This document shows, piece after piece, positions 2,930 to 18,917 of a stretch of DNA of 64,000 nucleotides. The position numbers and the translations under genes are program-made. Within the stretch, counting starts at the first letter, position 1. Each line of letters starts with the position of its first letter. The notes beneath the pieces were generated by a model. That model ran no database searches. It saw nothing but the letters and a program-made list of their open reading frames with translations, and was not told the DNA's origin. Source of the stretch: Acidobacteriota bacterium (GTDB taxonomy: Bacteria; Acidobacteriota; Holophagae; Holophagales; Holophagaceae); the NCBI GenBank assembly GCA_016192145.1, contig JACPUT010000002.1, positions 372,001 to 436,000 on the forward strand, given 5' to 3'.

Positions 2930-3005
2930 GAAAGAGCGGGATCAACGTCCACTCTCCCGAAGACGGGGATCCACCCGCCAATGAATTCCCTGCCAGGGTT
3001 GCTAA
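2930..3005 (-). promoter_or_regulatory. regulon promoter F, upstream of the BNR protein
   Basis: On the minus strand, degenerate 6-mers TTAGCA (3000-3005), TGGCAG (2990-2995) and TTCATT (2980-2985) sit at exact 10-bp spacing. After 34 bp comes the conserved start block (2930-2945, containing CCCGCTCTTTC). A weak -10, GAGAGT, lies at 2951-2956. This is the most degenerate of six equivalent promoters. The repeats overlap the end of the kinase gene ending at 3002. Confidence 0.5.
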
Positions 3006-4345
3006 ACCTTTTTCAGGTGACGGTGACCTGTGAAGGCCAGGGTCGCGGCGGTGCCTCCCCCGGGCCGATCCGCCAGGGTGAAGGTGCCCCCGTGGAGGGC
3101 GAGGATGCTCTGGACGATGGGGAGGCCGAGCCCATGGCCTCGGCTGCCCTGCCCCCGGTTCCAGCGGTCGCCCAGGGCCGCGCGCACGCCGGGGGGCAGA
3201 CCCGGGCCCTCGTCCAGCACGCGCAGGGCGAGCCCGTCGTCCTGCGCCTCGGCCTCCAGGACGACGCGCCCCCCCCTGGGTGTGGCCGCGAGCGCATTGC
3301 TCACCACGTTGTGCAGGGCCCGGGTGAGGAGGGCCGGATCCGCGGCGAGGCGGAGACCGGGGGGCGCTTCCACGGAGAGGGAGATGTCGCCCTCCTCGGC
3401 CAGGCCCTCGAAGAAATCCCGGGTCTCCTCGAGGAGATCGGCGGCCTCCAGCTCCTGCCACTTCACGGAGGCGGTGGGATCGGCGCGGCGGGCCAGGAAG
3501 AGGATGCTCTCGATGAGGGACTGGAGCCGGTCGCAGGCCTCCAGTGAGGGGCCCAGGGCTTGGGGGGACACGGTTTCCCGGCGGAGCACGAGGTCCTCCA
3601 GGGAGGAGCGGAGGTGCTGGAGCGGGGTGCGCAGCTCATGGGCGAGCTCGGAACCCATCTCGTCCAGGCGGTGGATGGCCTCCTGGAGGCGGGCCAGGGC
3701 CCCGTTGAGGGTGTGCACGAGCTGGCCCAGCTCTTCGGGGAATTGCGCGGCCTCCAGGGGATGGAAGGGATCGCCGGGTCGCACGGAGGCCGTCTCCTCG
3801 GCGATGCGGCGCAAGGGGCCCAGGCCGCGGGCGGCCACGAGGCGCCCGAGCAGCGCCGCGACGGCGGTGGCGAGGAGGGTGCCCACCCAGAGCGTTCGCC
3901 TGAACGAACCCACGAGGGCCGCCTCGTGGCTCCGGTCCATGAGGAGGCGCAGCTCGCCGCCGGGAAGGGCCTTGCGCAGGGCGCTGGCCTCACCGCCGCC
4001 CATGGAATCCACCTCGTGGGCGCGGCCGTCCAGGGGAACGGAGGGCCAGGGGGCCTGGGGCAGTTGGGGATAGCCGGGGCTGTGCCGCTCGGGCTGCCCG
4101 GCGAGGGAGAGGCTCCACTCGGCCTTTTCGGGACGGGAGCCGGGTTCATGCGGGAGCGCCTTCCCGGAACCGAGGGCCTGGGCGAGGTAGGCGGCCTGGG
4201 CCTCCAGCACCTGGGCATCCTCCCGCTCCATGCTGCGGTGCAGGGCCCGATCCATCAGCGCGGCGAAGGTTCCCAGGATGAGCAGGGCCGTCACCGCGAA
4301 GCCGACCTGAAGCTGGCGGATGAGGGAGGGGGCGTTGCTAGTCAT
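3002..4345 (-). CDS. sensor histidine kinase (two-component system 1)
   Basis: A 447-residue membrane kinase. TM1 is at about residues 14-31, a periplasmic loop at 32-150 and TM2 at 151-171, followed by a HAMP-like linker. The HisKA phosphoacceptor is His236 in ELAHELRTPLQ. The HATPase domain shows an N-box (HNVVSNALAATP), G1 (LDEGPGLPPG) and G2 (GHGLGLPIV). It overlaps the end of the upstream response regulator by 8 bp, so the two are translationally coupled. The signal sensed by the roughly 120-residue periplasmic loop is unknown. It lies between the BNR gene and the first M4 peptidase, and its partner is a plausible regulator of the island. Confidence 0.92.
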   Translation of the reverse strand: MTSNAPSLIRQLQVGFAVTALLILGTFAALMDRALHRSMEREDAQVLEAQAAYLAQALGSGKALPHEPGSRPEKAEWSLSLAGQPERHSPGYPQLPQAPWPSVPLDGRAHEVDSMGGGEASALRKALPGGELRLLMDRSHEAALVGSFRRTLWVGTLLATAVAALLGRLVAARGLGPLRRIAEETASVRPGDPFHPLEAAQFPEELGQLVHTLNGALARLQEAIHRLDEMGSELAHELRTPLQHLRSSLEDLVLRRETVSPQALGPSLEACDRLQSLIESILFLARRADPTASVKWQELEAADLLEETRDFFEGLAEEGDISLSVEAPPGLRLAADPALLTRALHNVVSNALAATPRGGRVVLEAEAQDDGLALRVLDEGPGLPPGVRAALGDRWNRGQGSRGHGLGLPIVQSILALHGGTFTLADRPGGGTAATLAFTGHRHLKKV

Positions 4346-5018
4346 GCATGCCCATCACCACGCCCAGGCCGCGCACGGTGTGGATCAGCTTCACGGGGAA
4401 GGGGTCATCCAGCTTCCGCCGCAGGCGCCGGATCTGGACGTCCACGGCATTGGGATCCGTCACGGCGGGCATGCCCCACACGGCCCGGACGATCTGGGAG
4501 CGGGACACGACGGCGCCGCGATGTTCCAACAACAACACCGCGAGGGCGTACTCCTTGGGGGTGAGTTCCACCTTTTGGCCGGAACGGGAAATCCTGCGGA
4601 GGGCGGGTTCCCAGATCAGATCTCCCACCTCCACCTGTTTGCTGTAGGCCTCCTTGGGCTGGGTGCGGCGGATGATGGCGCGCAGGCGGGCCACCACTTC
4701 CGGGAGGGAGTAGGGTTTGACGACGTAGTCATCGCCGCCCTCCTCGAGACCCAGGATCCGATCCTCCATGCGATCCCGGGCCGTGAGGAAGAGCACGGGA
4801 GTCTGGCGGCCCACCTCGCGCAGGCGGCGCACCACGTCGAGGCCGGAGAGGCCGGGCACGTGGACGTCGACCACCATGGCGTCGAAGGGGGAGGTCAGCG
4901 CCAGGGCGAGGGCCTGATCCCCCGCGCCACAGGAAACCACCTGGAAACCGGCCTCGGTGAGTCCGGTCTCCAGGTGGGCGGCGATCTCGGGATCATCTTC
5001 CAGCACGAGCAGGGGCAT
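4338..5018 (-). CDS. OmpR/PhoB-family response regulator (two-component system 1)
   Basis: A 226-residue regulator with an N-terminal receiver domain. The acidic pocket is EDD at residues 7-9, the phosphoacceptor is Asp51 in VVDVHVPG, and the conserved Lys is in VVKPYS. The C-terminal winged helix contains the recognition-helix region VDVQIRRLRRKLDDP. Start choice: a longer frame exists, but the ATG at 5018 begins the canonical receiver strand MPLLVLEDD and lies exactly 6 bp after a TACATT hexamer, suggesting a leaderless transcript. No Shine-Dalgarno is visible. It is first in an RR-HK operon. Proteins of this family bind tandem direct repeats of about 10-11 bp, the geometry found upstream of the neighbouring peptidase genes. 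Confidence 0.92.
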   Translation of the reverse strand: MPLLVLEDDPEIAAHLETGLTEAGFQVVSCGAGDQALALALTSPFDAMVVDVHVPGLSGLDVVRRLREVGRQTPVLFLTARDRMEDRILGLEEGGDDYVVKPYSLPEVVARLRAIIRRTQPKEAYSKQVEVGDLIWEPALRRISRSGQKVELTPKEYALAVLLLEHRGAVVSRSQIVRAVWGMPAVTDPNAVDVQIRRLRRKLDDPFPVKLIHTVRGLGVVMGMHD

Positions 5019-5030
5019 GGCCTGAATGTA
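5019..5030 (-). promoter_or_regulatory. leaderless-type -10 of response regulator 1
   Basis: TACATT at 5025-5030 (minus strand) is followed by exactly 6 bp and then the ATG, so the predicted +1 coincides with the start codon. There is no convincing -35. Confidence 0.5.
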
Positions 5031-5049
5031 CACCGCGGCGGGGTGGGAT

Positions 5050-5075
5050 GAACAAGGGCCGCCCGGAGGCGGCCC
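5050..5075 (-). terminator. terminator after M4 peptidase 1
   Basis: Perfect 8-bp GGGCCGCC/GGCGGCCC stem with a 4-nt loop (5056-5075), followed on the minus strand by TTGTT. It lies about 20 bp after the peptidase stop codon and separates that gene from response regulator 1. Confidence 0.7.
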
Positions 5076-5094
5076 CTGCTTCAATCGGAGGCGC

Positions 5095-7431
5095 TTAGAA
5101 GGTGAGCTTCAGGGTGTAGGGGTTCACGGTGCTGGCGCCGGAGTAGTACCTCACCCGGGCGTAGTAGACCTTCGCGGAGGCGCTGGTGTTGGTGACGCTG
5201 GCGGTGTCCACCGCGCCCGTGCCCAGGACGGAGCTGGCCACCTGACTGCCGTTGCTGCTGTAGAGGTAGAGGTCGAAGTCACTGGTGCTCGGCGGCGTCA
5301 GCACGGCTTGGAAGGTGTGACCCGCCGGCACGGTGACCTTGAAGTAGTCGGTGTCCGACGTGGTGGAGATGTAGCCCTTCACGGTGGTGCCGCTGGTGGC
5401 CACGAGGTTGGCCTTGGCGCGGGTGTTGTTGCCCTCCACCTCGTTTTGATAGCCCGAGGTCCCGTTGGTGGTGGTGAAGGGGACGGAGGTGGACGTGCCG
5501 ACGTTGCCCGCCGCGTCGTAGGCCTTGGCCACGAGGGTGTGGCTGCCATCGGCGAGGGTGGCGGAGTTGAAGGCCATGTCGTAGGGCGAGCTGGTATCCG
5601 TGCCCACGAGGCTGCCATCGATGTAGAACTCCACCTTGGTGACTCCCACGTCGTCGGAGGCCGTGGCGCTGAGGGTGATGGTTCCGGTGCTGCCGACCTC
5701 GGTGGCCGAGCAGGTGGGCGAGGTGGTGTCGCCGTTGTTCCAGACGGCCCCCACGTTGATGCCATGGTAGGCGTTCCAGACGGCGGCTTCTTCGGCTCCA
5801 CCGGCTCCATAGAGGTCCTTCGCGGCGTTGATGCAGGCCGTGCGGGCCGCGGCGTAGTTGGAGCTGGAGGTGAGGTAGACGGAGAGGGCCCGGTACCAGA
5901 TCTGGGTGGCCTTGGCGGGGCCGATGCCGGTCATGCCGCTGGGCAGGTAAGTGGTCGAGTAGTCGCCGGAGGTGGTGGCGCCCTGGCTCAGGAAGAAGAA
6001 CATGCGGTTGTTGGGGCCGCTGCTGTAGTGCACGTCGATGCTGCCGATGCCGCTGTACCAGGCATCCTTGGAACCCCCGTCCTTGCTGGGCTTGAACATG
6101 TAGCGCAGGGGGCTGGAGGCGAGCTGTTCCCCCACGAGCCAGCATCCGTCCGTGTTCGGCACGGAGTCCGGCAGGGTGTTTCCATTGGCGGAGTAGAGTT
6201 CCACCATGTTGCCGAGGATGTCGGAATTGGACTCGTTGAGGCCGCCGGGCTCGCCCGAGTAGACGAGGTTGGCGGTGTTCGAGCAGACGCCGTGGCTCAT
6301 CTCGTGGCCGGCCACGTCGAGGGAGGTGAGGGTCGTGAAGGAGCTGCCGTCGCCGTAGGTCATGCAGAAGCAGCTGTCGGACCAGAAAGCGTTGTCGTAG
6401 GAATTCGAGTAGTGGACGCGGCTGTAGGTGGCGCGATTGGCGTTGTCGATGCCGTCCCGGTTCAGCACGTTCTTGAAGAAGTCGTAGGTGGCCTCGATCC
6501 CATAGTGGGCGTCGACGCCGGCCGTCTGCCCGTTGGCGGCGGTGGTGGAAGAGCCTTCGACGTAATTGGCGCCATCGCCCCAGGTGTTGTCGGCATCGGT
6601 GTAGAGCGTGCCGGTGCCGCTGCCCGTGCCGTGGTTGAGGTTGTAGGTGCTGATGTTCATGGGGCGGAAGACGTCCCTCAGCTCGTAGCTGCCGCCGTTC
6701 AAGTTCGTGTGGATCGACCTCACCCCGCTGTACTGCGTGTTCGCCGTGCCCACGGCATCGGTGGTGCGGAGGCTGCTCCACTCGTCGAGGATGGCGCCGG
6801 TGTGGGCGTCGATGATGTAGTCCGTGTGCCGGGTCTCCTCCGTGCCGTTCTCCAGCTGGGTGTGGACGTGGTAGGCCAGGTGGTAGCGGGAGGTAAAGCC
6901 GGCCGGGAGGACCTCATCCACCGTCCGGATGGCCCGGGAGGGGCGGGTGGCCGTGGCCGGGTAGATCACCAGCTCGGCGGTGGGTTGGGCCGTGTAGTCG
7001 CCCTTGGGGGCGAGGGCGCGGTGGGCCACGGCCAGGGCTTCTTCCGCGACGAGGCCCGGGGTGGTGTTGAGCTGGATGCCGGGGCGGAGGGCCCGGGTGT
7101 GGGGGGCGAAGCCGCCTTCGGCATCCTGGTGGGTGATGAACTCGCCGCCCCAGACGCGCACGCCCTGGAAGGTCTGATTGAAGCGGGCGTGGGCCTGGCC
7201 GAAGTCGTCGGTGAGCACGCGGGTGAACTGGAAGCCATGGCGGGCGTCGAGGCCCAGCTCGGGGCGCAAGGTCTCCAGGAGGCGCGCGGCCGTGGCTACA
7301 CGGGCCGGTTCCTGGGACCGGAGGGAAGCGATGGCCTGAGGGGAGAATCGCGCTTGCTGGGCCGCGAGGGGGGCGGCGGCCAGGGTGAGGGCCAGGAGGG
7401 TGAGGCGGGCACGGCGGGGCGTTGCGGCCAT
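5095..7431 (-). CDS. M4 (thermolysin-family) metallopeptidase 1, with Ig-like and PPC C-terminal domains
   Basis: A secreted zinc endopeptidase of 778 residues. The signal peptide is residues 1-24 (LTLLALTLAAAPLAAQ). A fungalysin/thermolysin-type propeptide runs to about 215. The catalytic domain follows, with zinc ligands His376 and His380 (HEMSH) and Glu400 (GGLNES). An Ig-like domain (about 590-675, VTKVEFYIDG) and a bacterial pre-peptidase C-terminal domain (about 680-778, DTDYFKVTV) follow. The ATG at 7431 is chosen because AAGGAG lies 6 bp upstream and it starts a clean signal peptide; a longer frame adds 26 unlikely residues. All five paralogues share the unusual active-site approach NAFWSDSCFCMTYGDG. 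It has its own promoter and terminator. Confidence 0.95.
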   Translation of the reverse strand: MAATPRRARLTLLALTLAAAPLAAQQARFSPQAIASLRSQEPARVATAARLLETLRPELGLDARHGFQFTRVLTDDFGQAHARFNQTFQGVRVWGGEFITHQDAEGGFAPHTRALRPGIQLNTTPGLVAEEALAVAHRALAPKGDYTAQPTAELVIYPATATRPSRAIRTVDEVLPAGFTSRYHLAYHVHTQLENGTEETRHTDYIIDAHTGAILDEWSSLRTTDAVGTANTQYSGVRSIHTNLNGGSYELRDVFRPMNISTYNLNHGTGSGTGTLYTDADNTWGDGANYVEGSSTTAANGQTAGVDAHYGIEATYDFFKNVLNRDGIDNANRATYSRVHYSNSYDNAFWSDSCFCMTYGDGSSFTTLTSLDVAGHEMSHGVCSNTANLVYSGEPGGLNESNSDILGNMVELYSANGNTLPDSVPNTDGCWLVGEQLASSPLRYMFKPSKDGGSKDAWYSGIGSIDVHYSSGPNNRMFFFLSQGATTSGDYSTTYLPSGMTGIGPAKATQIWYRALSVYLTSSSNYAAARTACINAAKDLYGAGGAEEAAVWNAYHGINVGAVWNNGDTTSPTCSATEVGSTGTITLSATASDDVGVTKVEFYIDGSLVGTDTSSPYDMAFNSATLADGSHTLVAKAYDAAGNVGTSTSVPFTTTNGTSGYQNEVEGNNTRAKANLVATSGTTVKGYISTTSDTDYFKVTVPAGHTFQAVLTPPSTSDFDLYLYSSNGSQVASSVLGTGAVDTASVTNTSASAKVYYARVRYYSGASTVNPYTLKLTF

Positions 7432-7518
7432 GGTGGGCTCCTTGGGTGGGGAGGTCTGGGGGGCGACGCCTGGGCATGCTTCGGGCCACGCCGAACCACG
7501 GACAGGCATTCACCGGTT

Positions 7519-7594
7519 GAAAGAGCGGAAAGCAGGCCCCACTTTGCGCGTTTGAATCCGCCGCACAAGCAATTCTTCTGTGAATTATTGTTAA
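7519..7594 (-). promoter_or_regulatory. regulon promoter A, upstream of M4 peptidase 1
   Basis: Minus strand: TTAACA (7589-7594) and TTCACA (7579-7584) are 10 bp apart, with a weaker third unit AATTGC (7569-7574). After 34 bp comes the start block with CCGCTCTTTC (7519-7533). The -10-like CAAAGT is at 7541-7546. Predicted +1 is near 7534, giving a leader of about 103 nt. Confidence 0.6.
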
Positions 7595-7710: not shown

Positions 7711-7730
7711 CTGCTTCAGCCAGGTCTCCT

Positions 7731-10121
7731 CTAGAAGGTGAGTTTCAGGGTGTAGCCGTTCACGGTGCTGGCCCCGCTGTAGTACTTCACGCGGACGTAG
7801 TAGGTGGCGGAGGCGCCGCTGTTGGTGACGCTGGCGGCATCCACGAGCCCCTTGCCCTTGACCGAGCTGGCCACCTGGGTGCCGGCGCTGTTGTAGAGGT
7901 AGAGGTCGAAGTCGCTGGCGCTGGGGGGCGTCAAGGTGGCGGAGAGGGTGCGGCCCGTGCCGAGGGTCACCTTGAAGTAGTCCGTATCGGAGGTGGTGCT
8001 GATCTTCCCCGTGACGGTGGTGCCGGTGGTGGTCACGGCGTTGGCCGTGGCGGTGGTGTTGTTGCTCTCCACCTCGGCCTGGGTGCCGCCCGTGGTGTTG
8101 TTCACGGTGAAGGCGACGGAGGTGGAGGTGGCCACGTTGCCGGCCGCGTCGTAGGCCTTGGCCGTGAGGCTGTGGCTGGCGTTGGAGAGGGTGGTGCTGT
8201 CCAGCGTCATGGAATAGGGGGAGGTGGTGTCGGTGCCCTTGAGGACGCCATCCACGTAGAACTCCACCTTGGTGACGCCGACGTTGTCGGAGGCGGAAGC
8301 GGAGAAGGTGATGGTGCCGCTGGTGCCGCTCTCCGTGGCGGAGACGGTGGGGGCGGTGGTGTCGCCGCCGGTGCCCGTCCACTTGGCACCCACGTTGATG
8401 GCCGCGAAGGCGTTCCACACGGCCTGCTCCTCGGGGGAACCGGCGCCGTAGAGATCCTTGGCGCTGCTGATGGCGGCCGTGCGGGCGGCGGCGTAGTTGG
8501 AGGAGGCGGTGAGGTAGGTGGTGAGAGCGCGGTACCAGATGCGGGCGGCGTGATCGTTGCCGACGCCGGTCATGCCGCCGGGCAGGTAGGAGCTGTAGAA
8601 GTCGCTGGTGGAGCTGCTGCTGGATCCCTGGCTCATGAAGTACCAGGCGCGGTTCATGGGGCCGCTGCTGTAGTGCACGTCGATGCTGCCGATGCCGCTG
8701 TACCAGGCATCCTTGGAGCCGCCGTCCTTGCTGGGCTTGTACATGTAGCGCAGGGCCGTGCCGGGGTGGCCCCAAGAGTTCTCGAACATGGTGTAGTTGG
8801 CGGTGATGCTGCCGCTGCCGGCGGCATCGGGCACCACGGAACCGGTGCCGCCACCGCCCAGCACGTAGAACTCCACGCAGGTGCCGAAGATGTCGGAGGT
8901 GGATTCGTTGAGGCCGCCGCTCTCGCCGGAATAGGTGAGGTTGGCGGTCTTGGAGGTCACGCCGTGGGTCATCTCGTGGCCCGCCGTGTCGAGGTCGGCC
9001 TCGCCCACGGAGCCGCCGGTGGCGCCATCGCCGTAGGTCATGCAGAAGCAGCTGTCGGACCAGAACGCGTTGTCGTACTGGGTGCTGTAGTGCATGCGGC
9101 TGTAGGTGGCCTTGCCGGTGTTGTCGATGCCGTTCCGGCCCAGGACGTTCTTGAAGAAGTCCCAGGTGGACTGGAGGCCCCGGTGGGCATCCACGGCGGC
9201 GGTCTGGGCGTTGGCGCTCATGCCGGCGGTGCCGTTGTATTGGAGGCCATCGCCCCAGGCATTGTCGGCATCGGTGAAGATGCTGCCGTTGCCGCTGGTG
9301 CCGTTGTTCAGGTTGGTGGTGATGTTGTTGCCAAAGGTGCCGCCGGTGCCGCGGGTCATATCGCGCAGTTCGTAACCGGTGGCGGTGCTGTTGGTGTTGA
9401 GGTTCACCGTGCCGTACCACTGGGACTTGCCGGTGCCCACGGCGGCGGAGGTGCGGAGGGCGTCCCACTGCTTAAGGATGGCGCCGCTGTGGGCGTCGAC
9501 CAGGTATTCCATGTGGCGGGTCTCGCCAGTGCCGTTCTCCAGCTGGGTGCGCACGAGGTAGGCGAGGTGGGTGCGGACCACTTCCACCTTCTCCATGGTG
9601 GCGTCGAAATCCCCGGCATTCATGGGGCCGCGGGGGCGGACCACCCGGGTGGCGGTGGCGGGGTAGACCACGAGTTCCACGGTGGGTTGGTAGGCGTACT
9701 CGCCCTGGGGGGCCAGGGCCTGGTGGGCTACGGCCAGGGCTTCGGCCTCGGTGAGGTTGGGCGCGGTATTCACGCGCAGGCCCAGCTTCAGGTCGGAGGT
9801 CTGGGGCGCGAAGGCGCCTTCGGAATCCTGGTGGGTGATCACCTCGCCGCCGAAGACCCGGATGCCCTGGTAGGTCTGGTGGAAGCGCCCGTGGGCCATG
9901 CCGAACTCGTCGGTGTGGATGCCCTTGAGGCTGAAGCCGTGCTGGGGGTCGAGGCCGAGCACCTGGCGCGCGGCGAGGAGGTGGCTTTCGGCCACCTTCG
10001 CGCGGGCGCCCTCCTGGGCGCGGAGGGACTCGATGGCCGGGGCGGCGAAGGGGGCCCTCTGGGCCACGAGGGGCGCGACGGCGAGGCCGAGCGCGAGCAG
10101 GGTGAGGGGGGATCGGGCCAT
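7731..10121 (-). CDS. M4 metallopeptidase 2, with Ig-like and PPC C-terminal domains
   Basis: A 796-residue secreted zinc peptidase, closely related to peptidase 1. Signal peptide about 1-21 (LTLLALGLAVAPLVAQ), FTP-type propeptide, catalytic HEMTH (His382, His386) and Glu406. The tail has an Ig-like module (VTKVEFYVDG) and a PPC domain ending YTLKLTF. Start: the ATG at 10121 has GGAG 6 bp upstream; an in-frame TTG four codons earlier overlaps that GGAG and is unlikely. Compared with peptidase 1 it has a longer loop after the active site (around the YVLGGGGTG segment). It lies within the tandem array under its own repeat-type promoter. Confidence 0.95.
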   Translation of the reverse strand: MARSPLTLLALGLAVAPLVAQRAPFAAPAIESLRAQEGARAKVAESHLLAARQVLGLDPQHGFSLKGIHTDEFGMAHGRFHQTYQGIRVFGGEVITHQDSEGAFAPQTSDLKLGLRVNTAPNLTEAEALAVAHQALAPQGEYAYQPTVELVVYPATATRVVRPRGPMNAGDFDATMEKVEVVRTHLAYLVRTQLENGTGETRHMEYLVDAHSGAILKQWDALRTSAAVGTGKSQWYGTVNLNTNSTATGYELRDMTRGTGGTFGNNITTNLNNGTSGNGSIFTDADNAWGDGLQYNGTAGMSANAQTAAVDAHRGLQSTWDFFKNVLGRNGIDNTGKATYSRMHYSTQYDNAFWSDSCFCMTYGDGATGGSVGEADLDTAGHEMTHGVTSKTANLTYSGESGGLNESTSDIFGTCVEFYVLGGGGTGSVVPDAAGSGSITANYTMFENSWGHPGTALRYMYKPSKDGGSKDAWYSGIGSIDVHYSSGPMNRAWYFMSQGSSSSSTSDFYSSYLPGGMTGVGNDHAARIWYRALTTYLTASSNYAAARTAAISSAKDLYGAGSPEEQAVWNAFAAINVGAKWTGTGGDTTAPTVSATESGTSGTITFSASASDNVGVTKVEFYVDGVLKGTDTTSPYSMTLDSTTLSNASHSLTAKAYDAAGNVATSTSVAFTVNNTTGGTQAEVESNNTTATANAVTTTGTTVTGKISTTSDTDYFKVTLGTGRTLSATLTPPSASDFDLYLYNSAGTQVASSVKGKGLVDAASVTNSGASATYYVRVKYYSGASTVNGYTLKLTF

Positions 10122-10184: not shown

Positions 10185-10270
10185 GAAAGAGCGGGGAGCT
10201 GCATCCAGAGTCGCGCCGACCTCCGCCTCGGCCGAATGAAGTGATGCGAAACGGTGTGAATTCCTGCAAA
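10185..10270 (-). promoter_or_regulatory. regulon promoter B, upstream of M4 peptidase 2
   Basis: Four minus-strand units at exact 10-bp period: TTTGCA (10265-10270), TTCACA (10255-10260), TTCGCA (10245-10250) and TTCATT (10235-10240). Then 34 bp and the start block AGCTCCCCGCTCTTTC (10185-10200). The -10-like GACTCT is at 10207-10212. Predicted leader is about 79 nt. Confidence 0.65.
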
Positions 10271-10316: not shown

Positions 10317-12803
10317 CTACTTGAGGGAGACGGCGTCCACGGCGAAGGAGGTCTGCAGGCTGCTGTCCTCCGTCATCTTGAAGTAGATCTGCACGGTCTG
10401 GCCCTTGTAGGCGCTCAGGTTGAAGGTGCGGATCTGGTAGCCCGTGGCCTTGTTCAGGTTGGAGTAGGTGGCCAGGGTGGAAAGCACGGTGCCGGCGCTG
10501 TTGAGGACCTGCACCTGGAGCTTGTCGTAGGCGGTGGTGGTCGTCGTCTCAGCGGTGTCGATGTGCAGCGCGAAGGTCAGCGTGCCCGTGGCGCTGCTGG
10601 GGATGGCGATGGTCTGCTTGAGGGTTTCGGTGGTGGTGGCGCCGTTGCCGCCGAGCCAGGCGTTCTTGGTGCCGGCGTAGGCGGGCTGACCCGTCCAGGT
10701 GCCGATGGCGCCGGTGGTGCCCGTCCAGCCGGTGGCGCCGCTTTCGAAGCCGCCGTTGACGACGAGCTCCGTGCCCGAGGTGGTGTTGCTCACGGAGAAG
10801 GCGACGGAGGTGGAGGTGCCGATGTTGCCGGCGGCGTCATAGGCCTTGGCGACGAGGGTGTGGCTGCCGTTGGCCAGGGTGGTGCTGTCAAGGGTGGAGC
10901 TGTAGGGGGAGGTGGTGTCGGTGGCCTTGAGGACGCCGTCCACGTAGAACTCCACCTTGGTGACCCCCACGTTGTCGGAGGCGGTGGCGGAGAAGGTGAT
11001 CGTGCCGCTGGTGCCGGATTCGGAGGCCGAGCAGGTGGGGGCGGTGGTGTCGGAGGAGCCGCCACCGGACCACTTGGCGCCCACGTTGATGGCGGCGTAG
11101 GCGTTCCACACGGCCTGCTCTTCGGCGGAGCCGGCGCCATAGAGATCCTTGGCGCTGTTGATGCTGGCGGTGCGGGCCGCGGCGTAGTTGGAGCTGGAAG
11201 TGAGGTAGGAGGTGAGGGCCCGGTACCAGATCTTGGCGGCCTTAAGGGGGCCGATTCCGGTCATGCCGGCGGGGAGGTAGGAGCTGTAGTTGTCGGCCCC
11301 GGAGGTGGTGCCGGCGCCCTGGCTCAGGAAGAAGAACATGCGGTTGTTGGGGCCGCTGCTGTAGTGGACGTCGATGGAGCCGAGGCCGCTGTACCAGGCA
11401 TCCTTGGAGGAGCCATCCTTGCTGGGCTTGTCGAGGTAGCGCAGGGGGCTGGCGGCCAGCTGTTCGCCGAGCTTCCAGGCGGTGTTGGTGTTGGTGACGG
11501 TGGCGGGGATGGTCTTGCCGTTGCGGGCGTAGATCTCGATCATGGCGCCGAAGATGTCGGAGTTGGACTCGTTCAGGCCGCCCGACTCACCGGAGTAGGT
11601 GAGGTTGGCGCTGTTGGCGCAGACACCGTGGGTCATCTCATGGCCGGCCACGTCCAGGGCCGTCAGCGTGGTGAAGCTGCTGCCATCGCCGTAGGTCATG
11701 CAGAAGCAGCTGTCGGACCAGAAGGCGTTGTCGTAGCTGTTGCCGATGTGGACGCGGGAGTAGGTGGCCTTGCCTGCGCCGTTGATGCCGTTGCGGCCGT
11801 GGGTGCCCAGGAAGTAGTCCCAGGACATGGCCATGCCGTACATGGCGTCCACCGCGGCGGTCTGGCCGTTGGCGGCGGTGGTGGAGCTGCCTTCCACGTA
11901 GTTGGCGCTGTCACCCCAGGTGTTGTCGGCATCCGTGTAGATGGTGCCGGTGGCCGTGGAGGTGGTGGAGGCGTGGTTCGAGTTGGTGACCACGTTGTTG
12001 CCGAAGGTGCCGCCCGTGCCGCGGGTCATGTCGCGCATCTCGTAGCCGGAGGTGACGCTGTTGGTGTTGACCGTCACGGTGCCGCTGTACTGGCTGTTGC
12101 CGGTGCCAGTGGCAGCCGTGGTGTGCAGGGTGTTCCAGCTCTTCAGGATGGCGCCGGTGTGGGCGTCCACCATGTAATCGGTGTGCTTGATGCCGTCGAG
12201 GTCGTTCTCGAGTTCGGTGTGGACGTGGTAAGCCAGCTGGTAGCGAAGGACATCCTCGCGGACCAGGGTGGCATCCACTTCCATGTCGATGGCGCGGGTG
12301 CGGGGCCGAACGACGCGGGAGGCGGTGACGGGGAAGACCACCAGCTCGGCGGAGGGCTGGAAGGAGTAGTCCCCCTTGGGGGCGAGCACGCGGTGGGCGG
12401 CGGCCAGGGCCTCGCCCTCGCTGAGGCTGGGGGTGGTGTTGACCTGGATGCCCCTGCGGAGGTCGTTGGTGGGAGCGGCGAAGGCGCCGTCGACCAGCTG
12501 GTGCGTGATGATCTCGGCGCCGAACACCTTCACGCCGTTGAACACCTGCTGGAAGCGGGCGTGGGCCTGGCCGAACTCGTCGGTGTTGACCCGGCCGAAG
12601 CGGAAGCCGTGCTGGGCATCCAGCCCCAGCACCTGGCGGGCGGCCAGGAGGTGATCCGCGGCGGCGGCGGAGCGGGCCCCTTCCTGGGCGCGGAGGGCCG
12701 CGACGGCCTGGGCGGGGAGGACGGCCTTCTGGGCGAAGGCGGGCATCGCCGCGAGGGTGAGGGCGAGAACGGACAGACGGGTATAACCCTTCGTTGCTGC
12801 CAT
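10317..12803 (-). CDS. M4 metallopeptidase 3, with Ig-like and carbohydrate-binding-like C-terminal domains
   Basis: An 828-residue secreted zinc peptidase. Signal peptide about 1-25 (LSVLALTLAAMPAFAQ), FTP-type propeptide, HEMTH (His388, His392) and Glu412. After the Ig-like module (VTKVEFYVDG) the tail differs from peptidases 1 and 2: instead of PPC there is a domain of about 150 residues beginning LVVNGGFESGATGW and ending FAVDAVSLK. This resembles NGGFE-type jelly-roll modules of the CBM4/9 kind, so it may bind carbohydrate or another matrix. Start: the ATG at 12803 has GGAG 6 bp upstream; the longer frame adds 33 residues before the signal peptide. Confidence 0.94.
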   Translation of the reverse strand: MAATKGYTRLSVLALTLAAMPAFAQKAVLPAQAVAALRAQEGARSAAAADHLLAARQVLGLDAQHGFRFGRVNTDEFGQAHARFQQVFNGVKVFGAEIITHQLVDGAFAAPTNDLRRGIQVNTTPSLSEGEALAAAHRVLAPKGDYSFQPSAELVVFPVTASRVVRPRTRAIDMEVDATLVREDVLRYQLAYHVHTELENDLDGIKHTDYMVDAHTGAILKSWNTLHTTAATGTGNSQYSGTVTVNTNSVTSGYEMRDMTRGTGGTFGNNVVTNSNHASTTSTATGTIYTDADNTWGDSANYVEGSSTTAANGQTAAVDAMYGMAMSWDYFLGTHGRNGINGAGKATYSRVHIGNSYDNAFWSDSCFCMTYGDGSSFTTLTALDVAGHEMTHGVCANSANLTYSGESGGLNESNSDIFGAMIEIYARNGKTIPATVTNTNTAWKLGEQLAASPLRYLDKPSKDGSSKDAWYSGLGSIDVHYSSGPNNRMFFFLSQGAGTTSGADNYSSYLPAGMTGIGPLKAAKIWYRALTSYLTSSSNYAAARTASINSAKDLYGAGSAEEQAVWNAYAAINVGAKWSGGGSSDTTAPTCSASESGTSGTITFSATASDNVGVTKVEFYVDGVLKATDTTSPYSSTLDSTTLANGSHTLVAKAYDAAGNIGTSTSVAFSVSNTTSGTELVVNGGFESGATGWTGTTGAIGTWTGQPAYAGTKNAWLGGNGATTTETLKQTIAIPSSATGTLTFALHIDTAETTTTTAYDKLQVQVLNSAGTVLSTLATYSNLNKATGYQIRTFNLSAYKGQTVQIYFKMTEDSSLQTSFAVDAVSLK

Positions 12804-12905: not shown

Positions 12906-12981
12906 GAAAGAGCGGGAAGCTATGAGGATGTTCCAACACCCTGGGGTGAACCGGGTGTTAAGTGATGTGAATTCTTGTGAA
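12906..12981 (-). promoter_or_regulatory. regulon promoter C, upstream of M4 peptidase 3
   Basis: Minus strand: TTCACA (12976-12981), TTCACA (12966-12971) and TTAACA (12956-12961), exact 10-bp period. Then 34 bp and AGCTTCCCGCTCTTTC (12906-12921). The -10-like GAACAT is at 12928-12933. Predicted leader is about 118 nt. This is one of the two clearest members of the set. Confidence 0.7.
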
Positions 12982-12998
12982 GAACCCGTGACAGAGGC

Positions 12999-14408
12999 TC
13001 AGGGTTCCTTTGGGCTGAGGATGGGGTGGGCTCCCGAGGAGCGGCGCCGGGTGCGCCCCGTGGGATCGGGCGGGAATCGCAGCCGGGCCGTGGTACCGGA
13101 ACCCATCCGGCTCTCCAGCTCCAGATCCCCCCCGTGAAGGTGCATGATCCCTTTCACGATGGCGAGTCCCAGCCCCGTGCCGCCATGGCTCCGGCTCCGG
13201 CTGTGCTCCACCCGGGTGAAGCGGGATCCCAGGGCCTGAATCATCTCGGCCGGAATGCCTTCGCCGGTGTCGCGGACTTCGAGGTTCACCTCGCCCTTGG
13301 AGGTGGTGGTCGCGGCCAGGGTGATCCTCCCACCGGCGGGCGTGTGGCGGAGGGCGTTGGAAACGAGGTTGCTGAGGGCCCGCTGGATGAGGGCCCGGTC
13401 CGCCATGATGGCGAGGTCGTCGGAGGCCTCCACCCCCAATTCCACCTGGACGCTCTCGGCGCTCACTTCGAAGTAATCGGCGATGCCGCGCAGGAGGTCG
13501 CTGGCTTGGAGCGGCCCCAACCGGAGCTCGGAGCTGGGCTCCTCGCAACGGGCCAGGAAGAGCATCTGCTCGATCATCATGCCGAGGCGATCCAGTTCCT
13601 CGAGGCAGGAGCCCAGGGCATCCTGCAGACCCCGCGCATCCTTGGGGCGGAGGAGGAGGCCCTCCAGCTCCGACCTCAGGTTCTGGATGGGGCTGCGCAG
13701 CTCATGGGCCAGGTCCGTGCCCAGGTTCTCCAGGCGCTGGAAGGCTTCCTGGAGCCGTTCCATGCCGATGTTCATGGAGGCGACCAGGTCGCCCAGCTCC
13801 CGGGGGAAGGTCTCTACGGGGATCTTTCGGCCCAGGTCCTTGGGGCGGATGAGGGCGGCTTGGATGGCCAGCCTCCCCAAGGGCCGGATGGATTGGCGGA
13901 CGATCAGCTCGCCCAGGCCATAGGCCGCCAGGAGGGTGAAGGCCACCATGAAAAGGCGCAGCCCGGTGTTGCGGGTGGCGACGAAGCGCTGGGCCTGAAG
14001 ATCCATGACCAACTGGATGCTGCCGGTCTCGGGCGGATCCAGGGGGAGGTGGGCCCTCAGCCAATGGGCCCCTTCATCCACCTCGAAGGGGGCATCCAGC
14101 GCCGGCCAGCCCGTCAACGGGAATTTGGATCGGAAGCCCTCGCTTTGGGCCAGGGTCTCTCCCGAAGGGCCGAGCATCCGCCACTGGATCTCGCCCAAGG
14201 TCGGCACGATGGTGCCCGGAGCGAGGGAAGGGCGGAGGCGGGAGGCATCCCGGGCAGCGGTCTGGAGGATCCCCTGGCGCGCTTGGGATAGCGCGATCCG
14301 GAAGCCCAGCTCGATGATGCAGAAGGCCACCGCGGACAGCACCACCGCGCCCCCCAGGAGGGTGCCCAGGATCTTGCGGCGGAGGCTGGGGGTGGAGAGG
14401 CCGGTCAT
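12999..14408 (-). CDS. sensor histidine kinase (two-component system 2)
   Basis: A 469-residue membrane kinase. TM1 is about residues 13-35, periplasmic domain 36-150, TM2 about 151-170, then a HAMP-like region. The phosphoacceptor is His235 in DLAHELRSPIQNL. The ATPase domain has an N-box (LSNLVSNALRHTP), G1 (VRDTGEGIP) and GTGLGLAIVKGI. It ends in a basic tail. It lies 29 bp after the response regulator stop codon, so the two are co-transcribed. Its organisation matches kinase 1 but the sensor domains differ, suggesting two inputs. No clear Shine-Dalgarno is seen before the ATG at 14408. Confidence 0.92.
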   Translation of the reverse strand: MTGLSTPSLRRKILGTLLGGAVVLSAVAFCIIELGFRIALSQARQGILQTAARDASRLRPSLAPGTIVPTLGEIQWRMLGPSGETLAQSEGFRSKFPLTGWPALDAPFEVDEGAHWLRAHLPLDPPETGSIQLVMDLQAQRFVATRNTGLRLFMVAFTLLAAYGLGELIVRQSIRPLGRLAIQAALIRPKDLGRKIPVETFPRELGDLVASMNIGMERLQEAFQRLENLGTDLAHELRSPIQNLRSELEGLLLRPKDARGLQDALGSCLEELDRLGMMIEQMLFLARCEEPSSELRLGPLQASDLLRGIADYFEVSAESVQVELGVEASDDLAIMADRALIQRALSNLVSNALRHTPAGGRITLAATTTSKGEVNLEVRDTGEGIPAEMIQALGSRFTRVEHSRSRSHGGTGLGLAIVKGIMHLHGGDLELESRMGSGTTARLRFPPDPTGRTRRRSSGAHPILSPKEP

Positions 14409-14437
14409 GGGGGGGCCGCGGTCGGGCTTGCGAAATC

Positions 14438-15118
14438 CTAGTCCCGGTCTTCGAGGACGATGCCCACGCCGCGCAGGGTGTGGACGAGCTTCTTCTCGTA
14501 GGGGTCATCGAGCTTGGCGCGCAGACGCCGCACCTGCACATCCACCGCGTTGGGATCCACGTGGGCCGTGAGGCCCCAGACGGTTTCCACGACGGTGCTG
14601 CGGGGCACCACCTGGCCCACGTTCTCCAGAAGGAGCGCCGCCAGCAGGTATTCCTTGGGGGTGAGATCCACGCGCTTGCCCAGGCGAGTGATGCGGCGCT
14701 TGTCGGGCTCCCAGGTGAGATCGGCCACTTCCACCTTGGGAGGGAGGGGCGAGCCGGGGCGGACGCGGCGCAGGATGGCCTGGAGGCGCGCGAGCACTTC
14801 GGGGAAGGCGTAGGGCTTCACGATGTAGTCGTCGCCGCCGGATTTGAGGCCCTTGAGGCGGTCTTCGAGGGTGCCCTTGGCGGAGAGGAAGAGCACGGGG
14901 GTGTCGATGTCCTCGGCGCGGAGCTTCTCGACCATCTGGAGGCCCGAGAGGCCCGGCAGCATCACGTCCACCACGAGGGCGTCATAGGCCCCCGAGGACG
15001 CGAGGCGGTGGCCGGCCGTGCCATCCGCGGCCAACTCCACCTGGAAGTGGGCCAGTTCGAGTCCCGCCTTGAGTTGCTTGGCGGCTTTGGCTTCGTCTTC
15101 GATCACCAGGATTCGCAT
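14438..15118 (-). CDS. OmpR/PhoB-family response regulator (two-component system 2)
   Basis: A 226-residue regulator, the same length as response regulator 1 and clearly its paralogue. Receiver with EDE at residues 7-9, phosphoacceptor Asp51 (VVDVMLPG) and Lys in IVKPYA. The DNA-binding winged helix includes VDVQVRRLRAKLDDP. It is a candidate activator of the TTCACA repeat promoters that flank the operon on both sides; which of the two regulators does so cannot be told from sequence. TACACT lies exactly 6 bp before the ATG, predicting a leaderless mRNA. Confidence 0.93.
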   Translation of the reverse strand: MRILVIEDEAKAAKQLKAGLELAHFQVELAADGTAGHRLASSGAYDALVVDVMLPGLSGLQMVEKLRAEDIDTPVLFLSAKGTLEDRLKGLKSGGDDYIVKPYAFPEVLARLQAILRRVRPGSPLPPKVEVADLTWEPDKRRITRLGKRVDLTPKEYLLAALLLENVGQVVPRSTVVETVWGLTAHVDPNAVDVQVRRLRAKLDDPYEKKLVHTLRGVGIVLEDRD

Positions 15119-15153
15119 GGGCAGAGTGTATCGCTTTCGTCACAGCTTGTAAG
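15119..15153 (-). promoter_or_regulatory. promoter of response regulator 2, leaderless type
   Basis: Minus strand: TACACT at 15125-15130, 6 bp before the ATG. A CTTACA hexamer lies 17 bp further upstream (15148-15153) and may be the -35. Confidence 0.5.
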
Positions 15154-15191
15154 GTAGAAAAAGGGGCCCGGTCAGCTTGGACCTCAATGGC

Positions 15192-15221
15192 AAAAAACCG
15201 GACCCGGGTTTCGGGTCCGGT
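15192..15221 (-). terminator. terminator after M4 peptidase 4
   Basis: Perfect 10-bp stem ACCGGACCCG/CGGGTCCGGT (15197-15221) with a 5-nt loop and a following run of T on the minus strand. A canonical intrinsic terminator. Confidence 0.85.
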
Positions 15222-15243
15222 GCGTGTTCTCCATCCCTCGAAA

Positions 15244-16929
15244 TCAGCGGTTGATGGCCTTGAAGGCGTTGGTGACGGCCGTCCGCTGGGTGCTGGTGGA
15301 GCCGTAGAGATCGGTGGCCGCGTTCAGGCAGGCGGTCTTGGCGCCGGCGTAGGTGGTGGTGCTGGTCATGTAGACCGTGAGGGCGCGATAGACGATCTTG
15401 GCGGCGGCGGTGTTGCCGATGCCCGTCATGCCCCCGGGAAGGTAGGAGCTGTAGAAGTTGCTCGTGGAGCTGCTGCTGGCGCCCTGGCTGAGGAAATAGA
15501 AGCAGCGGTTCATGGGGCCGCTGGAGTAGTGGACGTCGATGCTGCCGATGCCGCTGTACCAGGCGTTCTTGGAGGCGCCATCGAGGCTGGGCTTGTACAT
15601 GTACCGCAGGGGGGTGGAACGCAGCTGCTCCCCGATGGTCCAGTTGCCGCCCGAGGTGGGGATGCTGGTGGATCCGCCGCCTTTGGCGTAGAACTCCGTC
15701 ATGGTGCCGAAGATGTCGGACATGGATTCGTTGAGGCCGCCGCTCTCGCCGCTGTAGTTCAGGCCCGCGCTGTTGGCGGTCACTCCGTGGGTCATCTCGT
15801 GGCCGGCCACGTCAATGGCCGTGAGGGTCTTGAAGCTGTTGCCATCCCCGTAGGTCATGCAGAAGCAGCTGTCGGACCAAAAGGCGTTGTCGTAGCTGTT
15901 GCTGTAGTGCACGCGGTTGTAGGTGGCCTTGCCCGCGCCGTTGATGCCGTTGCGGCCGAAGACGTTCTTGAACATGTCGAAGGTCTTCATGGTGCCGTAG
16001 TGGGCGTCCACGCCGGCCGTCTGCCCGTTGGCGGCGGTGGTGGAGCTGCCCTCCACGTAGTTCGCGTTGTCGCCCCAGGTGTTGTCGGCGTCGGTGTAGA
16101 TGGTGCCCGTGCCGCTGGTGGCGTGGTTCAGGTTGCGGGTGGTGAACTGCATGCTGCGCACGTTGTCGCGCAGCTCGTAGCCGCCGCTGATGCTGTTGGT
16201 GGAGATGCTCACGGTGCCGCTGTACTGGCTCCTGCCGGAGCCCGTGGCGGCGGTGGTGTGCAGGGTGGACCACTTGCGGAGGATGCCGCCCGTGTGGGCG
16301 TTGATGAGGTAGTCGGTGTGGGCCGTCTCCTCGGCGCCGTTCTCCAGCTCGGTGTGGACGTGGTAGGCCAGCGTGTGGCGCACCACGCGCTCGGAGAACG
16401 CATCCGCGGCCTCCTGATCCAGGCTACGGGGGCCCCTCCGGATGGCGACCAGCTCCGTTTCGGGCACCACGACCAGTTCGATGCTGGGCGCGTAGGCGTA
16501 TTCGCCCTTGGGGGCGAGGTCCCGGTGGGCCACGGCGAGCGCTTCGCTGGAATCCATGGAGGGCACGGGGTTCAAGCGGATGCCCTTGAGGTGGGCGGTG
16601 GTGTGGGGCTGGAGGCCGCCTTCGGCATCCATGTGCGTGATGATCTCGCCGCCGAACACCTTCACGCCCTGGTAGGTCTGCTGGAAGCGCGTGTGGGTGA
16701 AGCCCAGCTCATCGGTGAAGGCGCGGAGGGGGGCCACGTCATTCAGGCCGTCCAGGCCCAGGGCCGTGCGATCGGCGCGGAGCAGGGCGTGGGCGGCTTC
16801 GATGCGGGCGGGCTCCTGGGCCCGGAGCTGCTCGACGAGTTCGGGGGCTCGGGCGGGGGCCTGGGCGGCGAGGGTGCCGCCCGCGAGGGCCAGGGCGAGG
16901 GAGGGGAGGGACAGGCGGAGGTTGGCCAT
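15244..16929 (-). CDS. M4 metallopeptidase 4, minimal form without C-terminal accessory domains
   Basis: A 561-residue secreted zinc peptidase. Signal peptide about 1-21 (LSLPSLALALAGGTLAAQ), propeptide, HEMTH (His377, His381) and Glu401. It ends immediately after the catalytic domain at VTNAFKAINR, with no Ig-like, PPC or CBM-like tail. Start: the ATG at 16929 has GGAG 6 bp upstream; a TTG two codons earlier is in frame but overlaps that spacing. The SDSCFCMTYGDG segment of the other paralogues is kept. The absence of tail modules suggests a freely diffusing enzyme. Confidence 0.95.
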   Translation of the reverse strand: MANLRLSLPSLALALAGGTLAAQAPARAPELVEQLRAQEPARIEAAHALLRADRTALGLDGLNDVAPLRAFTDELGFTHTRFQQTYQGVKVFGGEIITHMDAEGGLQPHTTAHLKGIRLNPVPSMDSSEALAVAHRDLAPKGEYAYAPSIELVVVPETELVAIRRGPRSLDQEAADAFSERVVRHTLAYHVHTELENGAEETAHTDYLINAHTGGILRKWSTLHTTAATGSGRSQYSGTVSISTNSISGGYELRDNVRSMQFTTRNLNHATSGTGTIYTDADNTWGDNANYVEGSSTTAANGQTAGVDAHYGTMKTFDMFKNVFGRNGINGAGKATYNRVHYSNSYDNAFWSDSCFCMTYGDGNSFKTLTAIDVAGHEMTHGVTANSAGLNYSGESGGLNESMSDIFGTMTEFYAKGGGSTSIPTSGGNWTIGEQLRSTPLRYMYKPSLDGASKNAWYSGIGSIDVHYSSGPMNRCFYFLSQGASSSSTSNFYSSYLPGGMTGIGNTAAAKIVYRALTVYMTSTTTYAGAKTACLNAATDLYGSTSTQRTAVTNAFKAINR

Positions 16930-17000
16930 GGGCAACTCCTGGAGGCAAGGTCGGCGGTGTCCGGAGGCCCCCTTGCCGTGGGGCCGCCGGATCAGGTTGG

Positions 17001-17076
17001 GGGAGAGCGGGGAAGCTGGATCACCCTGCCTGAATTGCCGTGAGGGGCCGTGTGAAGGTTTGTGAATTCTTGTGAA
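17001..17076 (-). promoter_or_regulatory. regulon promoter D, upstream of M4 peptidase 4
   Basis: Three perfect minus-strand TTCACA units at 17071-17076, 17061-17066 and 17051-17056 (10-bp period). Then 33 bp and AGCTTCCCCGCTCTCCC (17001-17017). The -10-like CAGGGT is at 17023-17028. Predicted leader is about 88 nt. This is the cleanest repeat array of the six. Confidence 0.72.
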
Positions 17077-17113
17077 GAAAAAGGAAGCGCCCGGCTCGGC
17101 CGGGCGCTTCCTT
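17077..17113 (-). terminator. terminator after M4 peptidase 5
   Basis: A 14-bp stem AAGGAAGCGCCCGG/CCGGGCGCTTCCTT (17081-17113) with a 5-nt loop, then TTTTTC on the minus strand. It directly abuts the repeat array of promoter D. Confidence 0.85.
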
Positions 17114-17128
17114 TGGAACCAGTGGTGC

Positions 17129-18784
17129 TTAGTTGACGTTGATGGCCTTGAAGGCGTTGGCGACAGCCGTGTATTCGGCGCTGCCGGAGCCGTAGAGGGC
17201 GGTGGCGGCGTTGAGGCAGGCGGTGCGCGCGCCGGCGTAGGTGGTGGAGCTCGTCATGTAGCTGGTGAGGGCTTTGAAGACGATGCGGGCGGCCTTGTCG
17301 TTGCCGATGCCGGTCATCCCGCCGGGCAGGTAGGTGGAGGCGTAGTTGCCCGTGCCCGTGCCCTGGCTCAGGAAGTAGAAGCAGCGGTTCATGGGGCCGC
17401 TGGAGTAGTGCACGTCCAGGCGCTTGAGGCTGGTGCTCCAGGCGTCCTTGGAGGATCCATCGAGGCTGGGCTTGTACATGTAGCGCAGGGGGCGGTTGAA
17501 GCTGGGGGTGGCCAGCTGCTCGCCGATGGTCCAGTTGCCGCCCGAGGCGGGGATGGTGGCAGCGGAGCTGCCGCGGTAGAACTCGGCCATGGTGCCGAAG
17601 ATGTCGGACATGGACTCGTTCAGGCCGCCGCTCTCGCCGCGGTAGGTGAGGTTGGCGGTGCGGCTCGTCACGCCGTGGGTCATCTCGTGGCCGGCCACGT
17701 CCAGGGCGGTGAGGGTGAGGAAGCTGCTGCCGTCGCCGTAGGTCATGCAGAAGCAGCTGTCGGACCAGAAGGCGTTGTCGTAGCTGTTGGAGTAGTGAAC
17801 GCGGCTGTAGGTGGTGGTGCCGGCGCCGTCGATGCCGTTGCGGCCGAAGACGTTCTTGTACATGTCCCAGGTGACGCCCAGGCCGTAGTGGGCGTCCACC
17901 GCGGCGGTCTGGCCGTTGGCGGCAGTGGTGGAGGAGCCCTCCACGTAGTTGGCGCCGTCGCCCCAGCCGTTGTCGGTGTCGGTGTAGATGGTGCCGGTGC
18001 CGCTGGTGGCGTGGTTCAGGTTGGTGGTGTAGTTGCCGGCGGTGCCGCGGGTCATGTCCCGCATCTCGTAGCCGGAGGCGGTGCTGTTCGTCTGCAGCGT
18101 GACGTTGCCGGAGAACTGGCTGTTGCCGGTTCCGTTGGCGGCGGTGGTGTGCAGGGTGCTCCAGCGGTCGATCACGGCGCCGGTGTGGGCGTTGAGCAGG
18201 AAGTCGGTGTGGGCCGTCTCCTCCGTGCCGTTCTCGAGTTCGGTGTGGACATGGTAGGCCAGGGTGTAGCGGACGACCTGCTCCCGGGAAATCTGCGTGC
18301 CGAAGTCCATGTCGAGGGCGCGGCGGGAGGGGCGCACCAGGATGGTCTCGGTCTCGGGGACGATGACGAGTTCCACCTTGGGGGCGTAGGCGTAACCTCC
18401 CTTGGGGGCCAGGATCTGGTGGGCCAGGGCGAGCGCTTCGCTGGCCTGGAGGCCGGGGGTGGTGTTCAGGGCGGCGACGGGCTGGTGGGCCAGGGTCATG
18501 GCGCGCTGATTGCCCTCGCGGTCCGTGTGGGTGATCACTTCCCCGCCGAAGATCTTCACGCCCTGAAACGTCTGCTGGAAGCGCGCGTGGGTCATCCCAA
18601 GCTCGTCCGTGGCGGCGTTGAGGATCCGGAAATCGTGCAGGCCGTTCAGGCCCAGGGACTGGCGCTGGGCCATGACATGGCTGGCGGCAGCCTGGGTGCG
18701 GGCGGCGTGGTCGGGGGCGCCCGCCAGGACGGCCGTGGCCGTGAGGGCCAGGGCGAGTGCGGAGAGGGGGAGACGATGGGCCAT
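17129..18784 (-). CDS. M4 metallopeptidase 5, minimal form without C-terminal accessory domains
   Basis: A 551-residue secreted zinc peptidase. Signal peptide about 1-20 (LSALALALTATAVLAG), shorter propeptide, HEMTH (His366, His370) and Glu390. It ends at NAFKAINVN, like peptidase 4. Start: the ATG at 18784 has GGAG 9 bp upstream and begins the signal peptide; the longer frame adds 30 residues. A local difference from the paralogues is WSTSLKRLDVHYS in place of WYSGIGSIDVHYS. It is the first of the array, next to der, under promoter E. Confidence 0.95.
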   Translation of the reverse strand: MAHRLPLSALALALTATAVLAGAPDHAARTQAAASHVMAQRQSLGLNGLHDFRILNAATDELGMTHARFQQTFQGVKIFGGEVITHTDREGNQRAMTLAHQPVAALNTTPGLQASEALALAHQILAPKGGYAYAPKVELVIVPETETILVRPSRRALDMDFGTQISREQVVRYTLAYHVHTELENGTEETAHTDFLLNAHTGAVIDRWSTLHTTAANGTGNSQFSGNVTLQTNSTASGYEMRDMTRGTAGNYTTNLNHATSGTGTIYTDTDNGWGDGANYVEGSSTTAANGQTAAVDAHYGLGVTWDMYKNVFGRNGIDGAGTTTYSRVHYSNSYDNAFWSDSCFCMTYGDGSSFLTLTALDVAGHEMTHGVTSRTANLTYRGESGGLNESMSDIFGTMAEFYRGSSAATIPASGGNWTIGEQLATPSFNRPLRYMYKPSLDGSSKDAWSTSLKRLDVHYSSGPMNRCFYFLSQGTGTGNYASTYLPGGMTGIGNDKAARIVFKALTSYMTSSTTYAGARTACLNAATALYGSGSAEYTAVANAFKAINVN

Positions 18785-18851
18785 GGTGGGGGGCTCCGGG
18801 TATGGGAAACCCCGACTCAGGGAAGCCCTGGTCGGGGTGCCGTTGGGGATG

Positions 18852-18917
18852 GGAAAGAGGGGAAGCTCTCCCAACTCTGCCCTCAGCCTCTGGAGCCGAT
18901 GTGTGAAAATATGTGAA
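18852..18917 (-). promoter_or_regulatory. regulon promoter E, upstream of M4 peptidase 5
   Basis: Minus strand: TTCACA at 18912-18917 and 18902-18907 (10-bp period), then 34 bp and AGCTTCCCCTCTTTCC (18852-18867). The -10-like CAGAGT is at 18874-18879. Further upstream (18918-18985) is a strongly AT-rich tract. Predicted leader is about 83 nt. Confidence 0.65.

Follow-up and report, generated by a model that had tools for sequence, protein, structure and literature searches.

A 10-bp repeat array upstream of secreted-protease genes in Holophagaceae: a likely activator-type promoter and its candidate two-component regulators

In M. tuberculosis, the PhoP box consists of directly repeated TCACAGC units, separated by an invariable spacer of 4 bp, to which PhoP binds as a dimer, trimer or tetramer (PMC4832192). 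In cyanobacteria, the HLR1 element of RpaB comprises (G/T)TTACA(T/A)(T/A) repeats, which are separated by 2 nt and consequently follow each other at a step of 10 bp, and activates from upstream of the -35 element (PMC9241938). PhoB contacts sigma70, and its Pho boxes are tandem direct repeats (PMC4415409); sites of ArcA contain two to five direct repeats, the number differing from promoter to promoter (PMC3798270). For the Holophagaceae, almost nothing has been published on gene regulation, and a literature search on the family name and "regulon" gave isolated mentions only.

Here, we describe a repeat array upstream of secreted-protease genes in a soil or sediment bacterium of this family. 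The window, i.e., the whole stretch of DNA analysed, covers 64 kb (G000:C1:372001-436000) of a 3.8-Mb genome of 69% GC, and its M4 proteins find their best matches in Geothrix and other Holophagaceae (Acidobacteriota). The minus strand carries, in this order, EngA, M4e, M4d, RR2, HK2, M4c, M4b, M4a, RR1, HK1 and a sortilin/BNR protein, with the following coordinates:

17129..18784, minus strand: M4e, secreted M4 (thermolysin-type) peptidase, start MAHRLPL
15244..16929, minus strand: M4d, secreted M4 peptidase
14438..15118, minus strand: RR2, OmpR-family response regulator 3' of M4d, candidate array-binding protein
12999..14408, minus strand: HK2, histidine kinase with HAMP, HisKA and HATPase_c (Pfam)
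10317..12803, minus strand: M4c, secreted M4 peptidase with Ig-like domain
7731..10121, minus strand: M4b, secreted M4 peptidase
5095..7431, minus strand: M4a, secreted M4 peptidase
4338..5084, minus strand: RR1, OmpR-family response regulator
3002..4345, minus strand: HK1, histidine kinase
1..2862, minus strand: BNR gene, secreted sortilin/VPS10-BNR protein with Ig domains, running past the window start

As an earlier note on this DNA had claimed, two OmpR-family regulators are encoded within the island: RR1 and RR2 both carry complete receiver and winged-helix domains, and each stands beside a HAMP/HisKA/HATPase kinase (Pfam) in the manner of a two-component system. Since RR1 starts about 10 bp past the stop of M4a, the genes M4a, RR1 and HK1 probably form a single operon. 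Upstream of the five M4 genes and the BNR gene, the same note had placed arrays of direct repeats, -10-like hexamers and start blocks, all of which read as described (matches of the composite model introduced below are given with their scores):

18902..18917, minus strand: M4e array, TTCACA at 18917 and 18907, 10-bp step; match at 18907 (31.0)
18874..18879, minus strand: M4e -10-like hexamer CAGAGT, 22 bp past the last repeat
18853..18867, minus strand: M4e start block AGCTTCCCCTCTTTC
17051..17076, minus strand: M4d array, three TTCACA at 17076, 17066 and 17056; match at 17056 (35.7)
17023..17028, minus strand: M4d -10-like hexamer CAGGGT
17001..17017, minus strand: M4d start block AGCTTCCCCGCTCTCCC
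12956..12981, minus strand: M4c array, TTCACA 12981, TTCACA 12971, TTAACA 12961; match at 12961 (47.9, the window's best)
12928..12933, minus strand: M4c -10-like hexamer GAACAT
12906..12921, minus strand: M4c start block AGCTTCCCGCTCTTTC
10235..10270, minus strand: M4b array, TTTGCA 10270, TTCACA 10260, TTCGCA 10250, TTCATT 10240; match at 10240 (36.5)
10207..10212, minus strand: M4b -10-like hexamer GACTCT, the same hexamer as in several Geothrix promoters
10185..10200, minus strand: M4b start block AGCTCCCCGCTCTTTC
7569..7594, minus strand: M4a array, TTAACA 7594, TTCACA 7584, degenerate AATTGC 7574; match at 7584 (24.1; 22.3 in the register of the earlier note)
7541..7546, minus strand: M4a -10-like hexamer CAAAGT
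7519..7534, minus strand: M4a start block TGCTTTCCGCTCTTTC
2980..3005, minus strand: weak BNR array, TTAGCA 3005, TGGCAG 2995, TTCATT 2985; match at 2985 (28.4, reached only with -10 and block included)
2951..2956, minus strand: BNR -10-like hexamer GAGAGT
2930..2950, minus strand: BNR start block GGACGTTGATCCCGCTCTTTC

The -10-like hexamer starts 22 bp past the last repeat at the window promoters (23 bp at the BNR gene) and is followed after 5-6 bp by the AGCTTCC..CGCTCTTTC block. The observation is confirmed with some qualifications: the 10-bp steps are exact, but only one of the three BNR repeats is recognisable and the third repeat of M4a is degenerate. Similarly, the start block is present at all six, but its end deviates to CTCTCCC at 17001 and to CCCTCTTTC at 18853, and the supposed absence of a -35 element applies to most sites of this genome but not to many Geothrix orthologues, where TTGAG is found 17-18 bp 5' of the -10.

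Since the M4 genes are tandem paralogues, their promoters in the window are partly alike for this reason. That the likeness as a whole is a leftover of tandem duplication devoid of regulatory meaning, for which the paralogy of the five genes and the old EngA-M4 synteny could be cited, is nevertheless extremely improbable: among these promoters only the repeats, the -10 and the block are kept while the flanking sequence differs, the hexamer spacing is exactly 10 bp with a locked -10 phase, and arrays before non-homologous genes already contradict this explanation.

The pattern also stands out against the genomic background. Allowing at most one mismatch, TTCACAN4TTCACA matched 18 times in the 3.8-Mb genome, with seven of these matches at the five M4 promoters, vs 0 times for the reversed pattern. 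A composite model of three 10-bp repeats, -10 box and start block, trained on other genomes and species only, was run over both strands of the window together with a reversed control, and its top six matches were exactly the six sites, scoring 22-48 vs a highest control score of 17.5. In the loci of relatives (709 kb), all composite matches above 27 lay upstream of M4 genes, with the single exception of a match (L045:6203) that precedes the gene of a secreted protease of S53 type. A genome-wide scan, which the earlier note had named as a refutation test, likewise bore out the proposed sites when run for half-site plus block, with six matches in 3.8 Mb, four of which are the island promoters of the BNR gene, M4a, M4b and M4c. 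Significance rests on the combination of elements, since within the window neither the block pattern with two mismatches (20 matches vs 30 expected) nor the lone GAATTCACA half-site (67 vs 68) rose above chance. A model of array and "-10" lacking the block missed the BNR site, whose repeats alone would not stand out. Elsewhere in the window, TTAACAATTTTTAACA at 47885-47900 (plus strand) is a perfect array match at the 3' end of an ORF, has neither -10 nor block and is probably unrelated to promoters. Another contig (L022; G000:C19:5033) holds an intergenic run of TTCACAGATTTACACAGATT repeats and, after it, a copy that is inverted in part; this run is unlike the promoter arrays.

Within the family, the spacing of the repeats was counted in loci chosen by M4-protein similarity, not by the array, plus the window and one same-genus stretch. 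Same-strand TTMACW hexamers were 10 bp apart in 40 cases, 20 bp in six and 30 bp in two, and occurred 0-2 times at every other distance up to 40 bp, which corresponds to direct repeats at about one helical turn. The family consensus of the repeat is TTAACA and that of this genome mostly TTCACA, which explains why a first scan of the relatives' loci with the window consensus found nothing. Alignment of 74 arrays on their last repeat showed two preferred positions of TANNNT, namely offset 22-23 (15 arrays) and offset 33-34, one helical turn beyond (six arrays), vs 0-2 at all other offsets; the array hence keeps a fixed helical phase to the -10 in place of a -35, which is absent in most window sites. 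What had been called a -10 without its first T has homologues in relatives (L025, L029, L032, L067) that are genuine TANNCT boxes, phase-locked to the array. In 61 genomes of the family, TTMACANNNNTTMACW was matched 237 times vs 42 times for the reversed control, and in 74 genomes from the rest of the phylum it showed no enrichment (79 vs 106).

Further observations concern the surroundings of these promoters. Many Geothrix M4 genes carry a TGATTCTCA element about 12-22 bp upstream of the TTAACA array (L026-L028, L030-L032, L034-L036, L038-L040, L051, L067), which resembles half a Fur box; a Fur reading was dropped, as the Fur-like 13-mer AATGATTCTCATT, with one mismatch allowed, had no match in one Geothrix genome and a single match in another. 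Pairs of ECF sigma -35/-10 elements were discarded as well, GGAAC being absent by eye at the correct distance. Methylococcales (L053-L063, L069) encode close M4 homologues of 49-60% identity and the same domain make-up that lack the array, and this closeness suggests horizontal transfer.

Across nine genomes, the array is found upstream of M4 peptidases, and it extends to M16 peptidases (L130, L132, L143, L198), sortilin/BNR (L150), RHS-like (L199, L124) and DUF1800 (L212) proteins, TonB C-terminal proteins (L144 and orthologues) and a DUF1573-like secreted protein, both in the own genome (L113/L194) and elsewhere (L131, L136, L141, L203, L204, L210, L213), among others. In most of the genomes examined, the DUF1573-like gene has kept the array, together with a -10-like element CANACT. 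Outside the island, a seventh full promoter of this genome (G000:C9:32182-32250; L192:8173-8241), made up of four repeats, GAGAGT and CGCTCTTCC, precedes a secreted M35 metallo-endopeptidase (L192:8333-9493). Two further genes have an array but no block, one for a TonB-dependent receptor (C5:121287) and one for a secreted Ig/CarboxypepD_reg protein of very large size (C18:2177). Not all targets appear to be secreted, some of them (L200, L202, L206, L207) looking cytoplasmic or uncertain, and array matches before cytoplasmic genes or inside genes are probably due to chance. The motif is thus enriched genome-wide before functionally related genes, mostly for secreted proteins, with exceptions. 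The proposed regulon of secreted proteases holds insofar as its targets are enriched for such enzymes, including unrelated families, but it is wider than proteases.

Which protein could read this array? An OmpR-family regulator is very likely, and RR1 and RR2 themselves are reasonably probable candidates. The nearest solved relatives of the two are M. tuberculosis PrrA and PhoP, with PhoP nearest for RR2, and the base-contacting Asn212 of PhoP aligns with Asn in RR1, RR2 and a sister clade (A'); at this position, Arg or Thr is found in PhoB and in most of the remaining OmpR paralogues that these genomes encode. Two regulators of this genome and those of G004, G005, G007 and L040, all adjoining array-driven M4 genes, fall into one clade (A), which also takes in three other regulators from LepA-linked loci (support 99/97-98). 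The order M4-RR-HK with four-repeat arrays recurs at L047 and L057, and a same-genus genome (G001) has kept EngA-M4-M4-M4-RR. Counting against RR1 and RR2 as the regulators, at L183, L184 and L185 a clade A regulator and its kinase adjoin a TonB-dependent receptor or another outer-membrane gene and not an M4 gene; a small kinase-fragment-like gene precedes, and no array lies nearby.

The distribution of the clades leaves room for a different OmpR-family protein encoded elsewhere, e.g., of clade A', to act on what would still be a real activator site, with RR1 and RR2 as local passengers or in control of something else. Arrays are present in G. terrae (G002) and G. fermentans (G006), where clade A is absent and only clade A' occurs, many Geothrix M4 genes have no regulator nearby, clade A' retains the recognition-helix Asn, and clades A and A' jointly span 9/9 genomes. 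Against this, the linkage of M4 and regulator genes is repeated across genera, in several cases with a kinase, the linked regulators are monophyletic, and two clade A genes lie in the very cluster with most array promoters; we hence judge a regulator from elsewhere to be unlikely, if well worth considering. Far less probable is that the array represents the family's Pho box and that the proteases are under the control of PhoB, the conserved regulator encoded with pst and phoU (pst-phoU-phoB locus). PhoB is encoded in 9/9 genomes and Pho boxes are direct repeats (PMC4415409), but the pstS upstream regions of five genomes (L265-L269) carry no array at 10 or 11 bp, for which reason PhoB was dropped as main regulator. 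In addition, no pst or phosphatase gene is among the identified targets, the period is 10 bp and not the 11 bp of Pho boxes, and the recognition helix of PhoB differs.

The CCGNTCTTTC block, which would occupy approximately positions +6 to +15 of the mRNA, might be a separate post-transcriptional element of the 5' mRNA and not part of the promoter, serving as, e.g., ribosome standby, mRNA stability element or RNA-binding site. This would be compatible with the array explanation and is suggested by the recurrence of the block in M16 leaders (L132, L143, L198) at another distance from the -10; moreover, it is predicted to be mostly unpaired and located upstream of hairpins of varying sequence. 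Its nearly fixed spacing to the -10 in M4 promoters, the modest folding z-scores of the leaders (mean -1.1) and the lack of an Rfam match among them speak against an RNA element, which we regard as plausible but somewhat short of probable. A structured leader RNA or riboswitch was rejected, as z-scores were weak and Rfam gave only a tRNA. In the M4e leader (window 18784-18850) and at L029:3916-4037, the stretch from start block to start codon contains a terminator-like hairpin with T's after it, which hints at possible attenuation in some M4 leaders.

Taken together, the exact family-wide 10-bp register, the phase-locked -10, the target enrichment, the linkage of regulator and M4 genes and the common clade of the linked regulators support the reading as activator promoters put forward in the earlier note, which withstood all computational tests applied to it, and we consider it likely that an OmpR/PhoB-family regulator, most likely of the RR1/RR2 clade, acts on them. 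We infer binding, activation, start site, regulator and signal as follows. The six sites would be promoters that depend on an activator and serve a regulon of extracellular proteases in Holophagaceae, and the response regulator would bind them head-to-tail on TTMACA half-sites every 10 bp along one helix face. As the array ends at about -35, the bound protein would stand in for the missing -35 element and recruit RNA polymerase to the -10, a weak box of the form [T/C/G]ANNCT that follows the array after 22-23 bp or one additional turn, with transcription starting at about the AGCTTCC block. Since the genes of RR1 and RR2 (clade A) are situated behind M4 genes and share their orientation, they should be co-transcribed with them from the array promoters, which would create positive feedback. 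The inducing signal could perhaps be the supply of extracellular protein or peptide. A more far-reaching version is tentative and, in our view, rather unlikely: a family-wide, self-amplifying protein-degradation regulon, in which protease and own two-component regulator share the array promoter and the start block adds control at the RNA level. Here, the kinase might even report on what is produced by the very protease under its control, as both come from one protease promoter.

The occurrence of the same promoter before secreted proteases throughout the family points to a system of protease control that had not been described before and that a two-component regulator, whose gene lies amid those of the proteases, probably governs. 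Its cis-code of 10-bp TTMACA array, 22 bp and ANNCT is specific and testable and predicts which secreted proteases are co-induced, and the naming of a likely two-component system opens the question of which signal triggers the digestion of extracellular protein.

Compared with known systems, HLR1 is the closest element by geometry, sharing the 10-bp step, an OmpR-type regulator and an activating position upstream of -35, but it has two repeats and no start block and serves redox and light genes in unrelated bacteria. The PhoP box resembles the array in its TCACA core, its direct repeats, the OmpR/PhoB family of its regulator and a head-to-tail tandem binding that extends to three to four repeats (PMC4832192), and PhoP, the nearest solved relative of RR2, has Asn212 of the recognition helix in common with it. 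However, the period of the PhoP box is 11 bp vs 10 bp in the Holophagaceae array, the genes are different, and other residues of the recognition helix are not as in RR1 and RR2. The Pho boxes of PhoB/PhoP are tandem direct repeats like the array but built of 11-bp units, and the pst promoters analysed here are free of it, whereas ArcA sites are alike in their multiple repeats and differ by 11-bp spacing and redox regulation. Since HLR1, PhoB/PhoP and ArcA sites already show such repeats, the Holophagaceae system represents a new regulon whose operator belongs to a known type, not a new type of mechanism.
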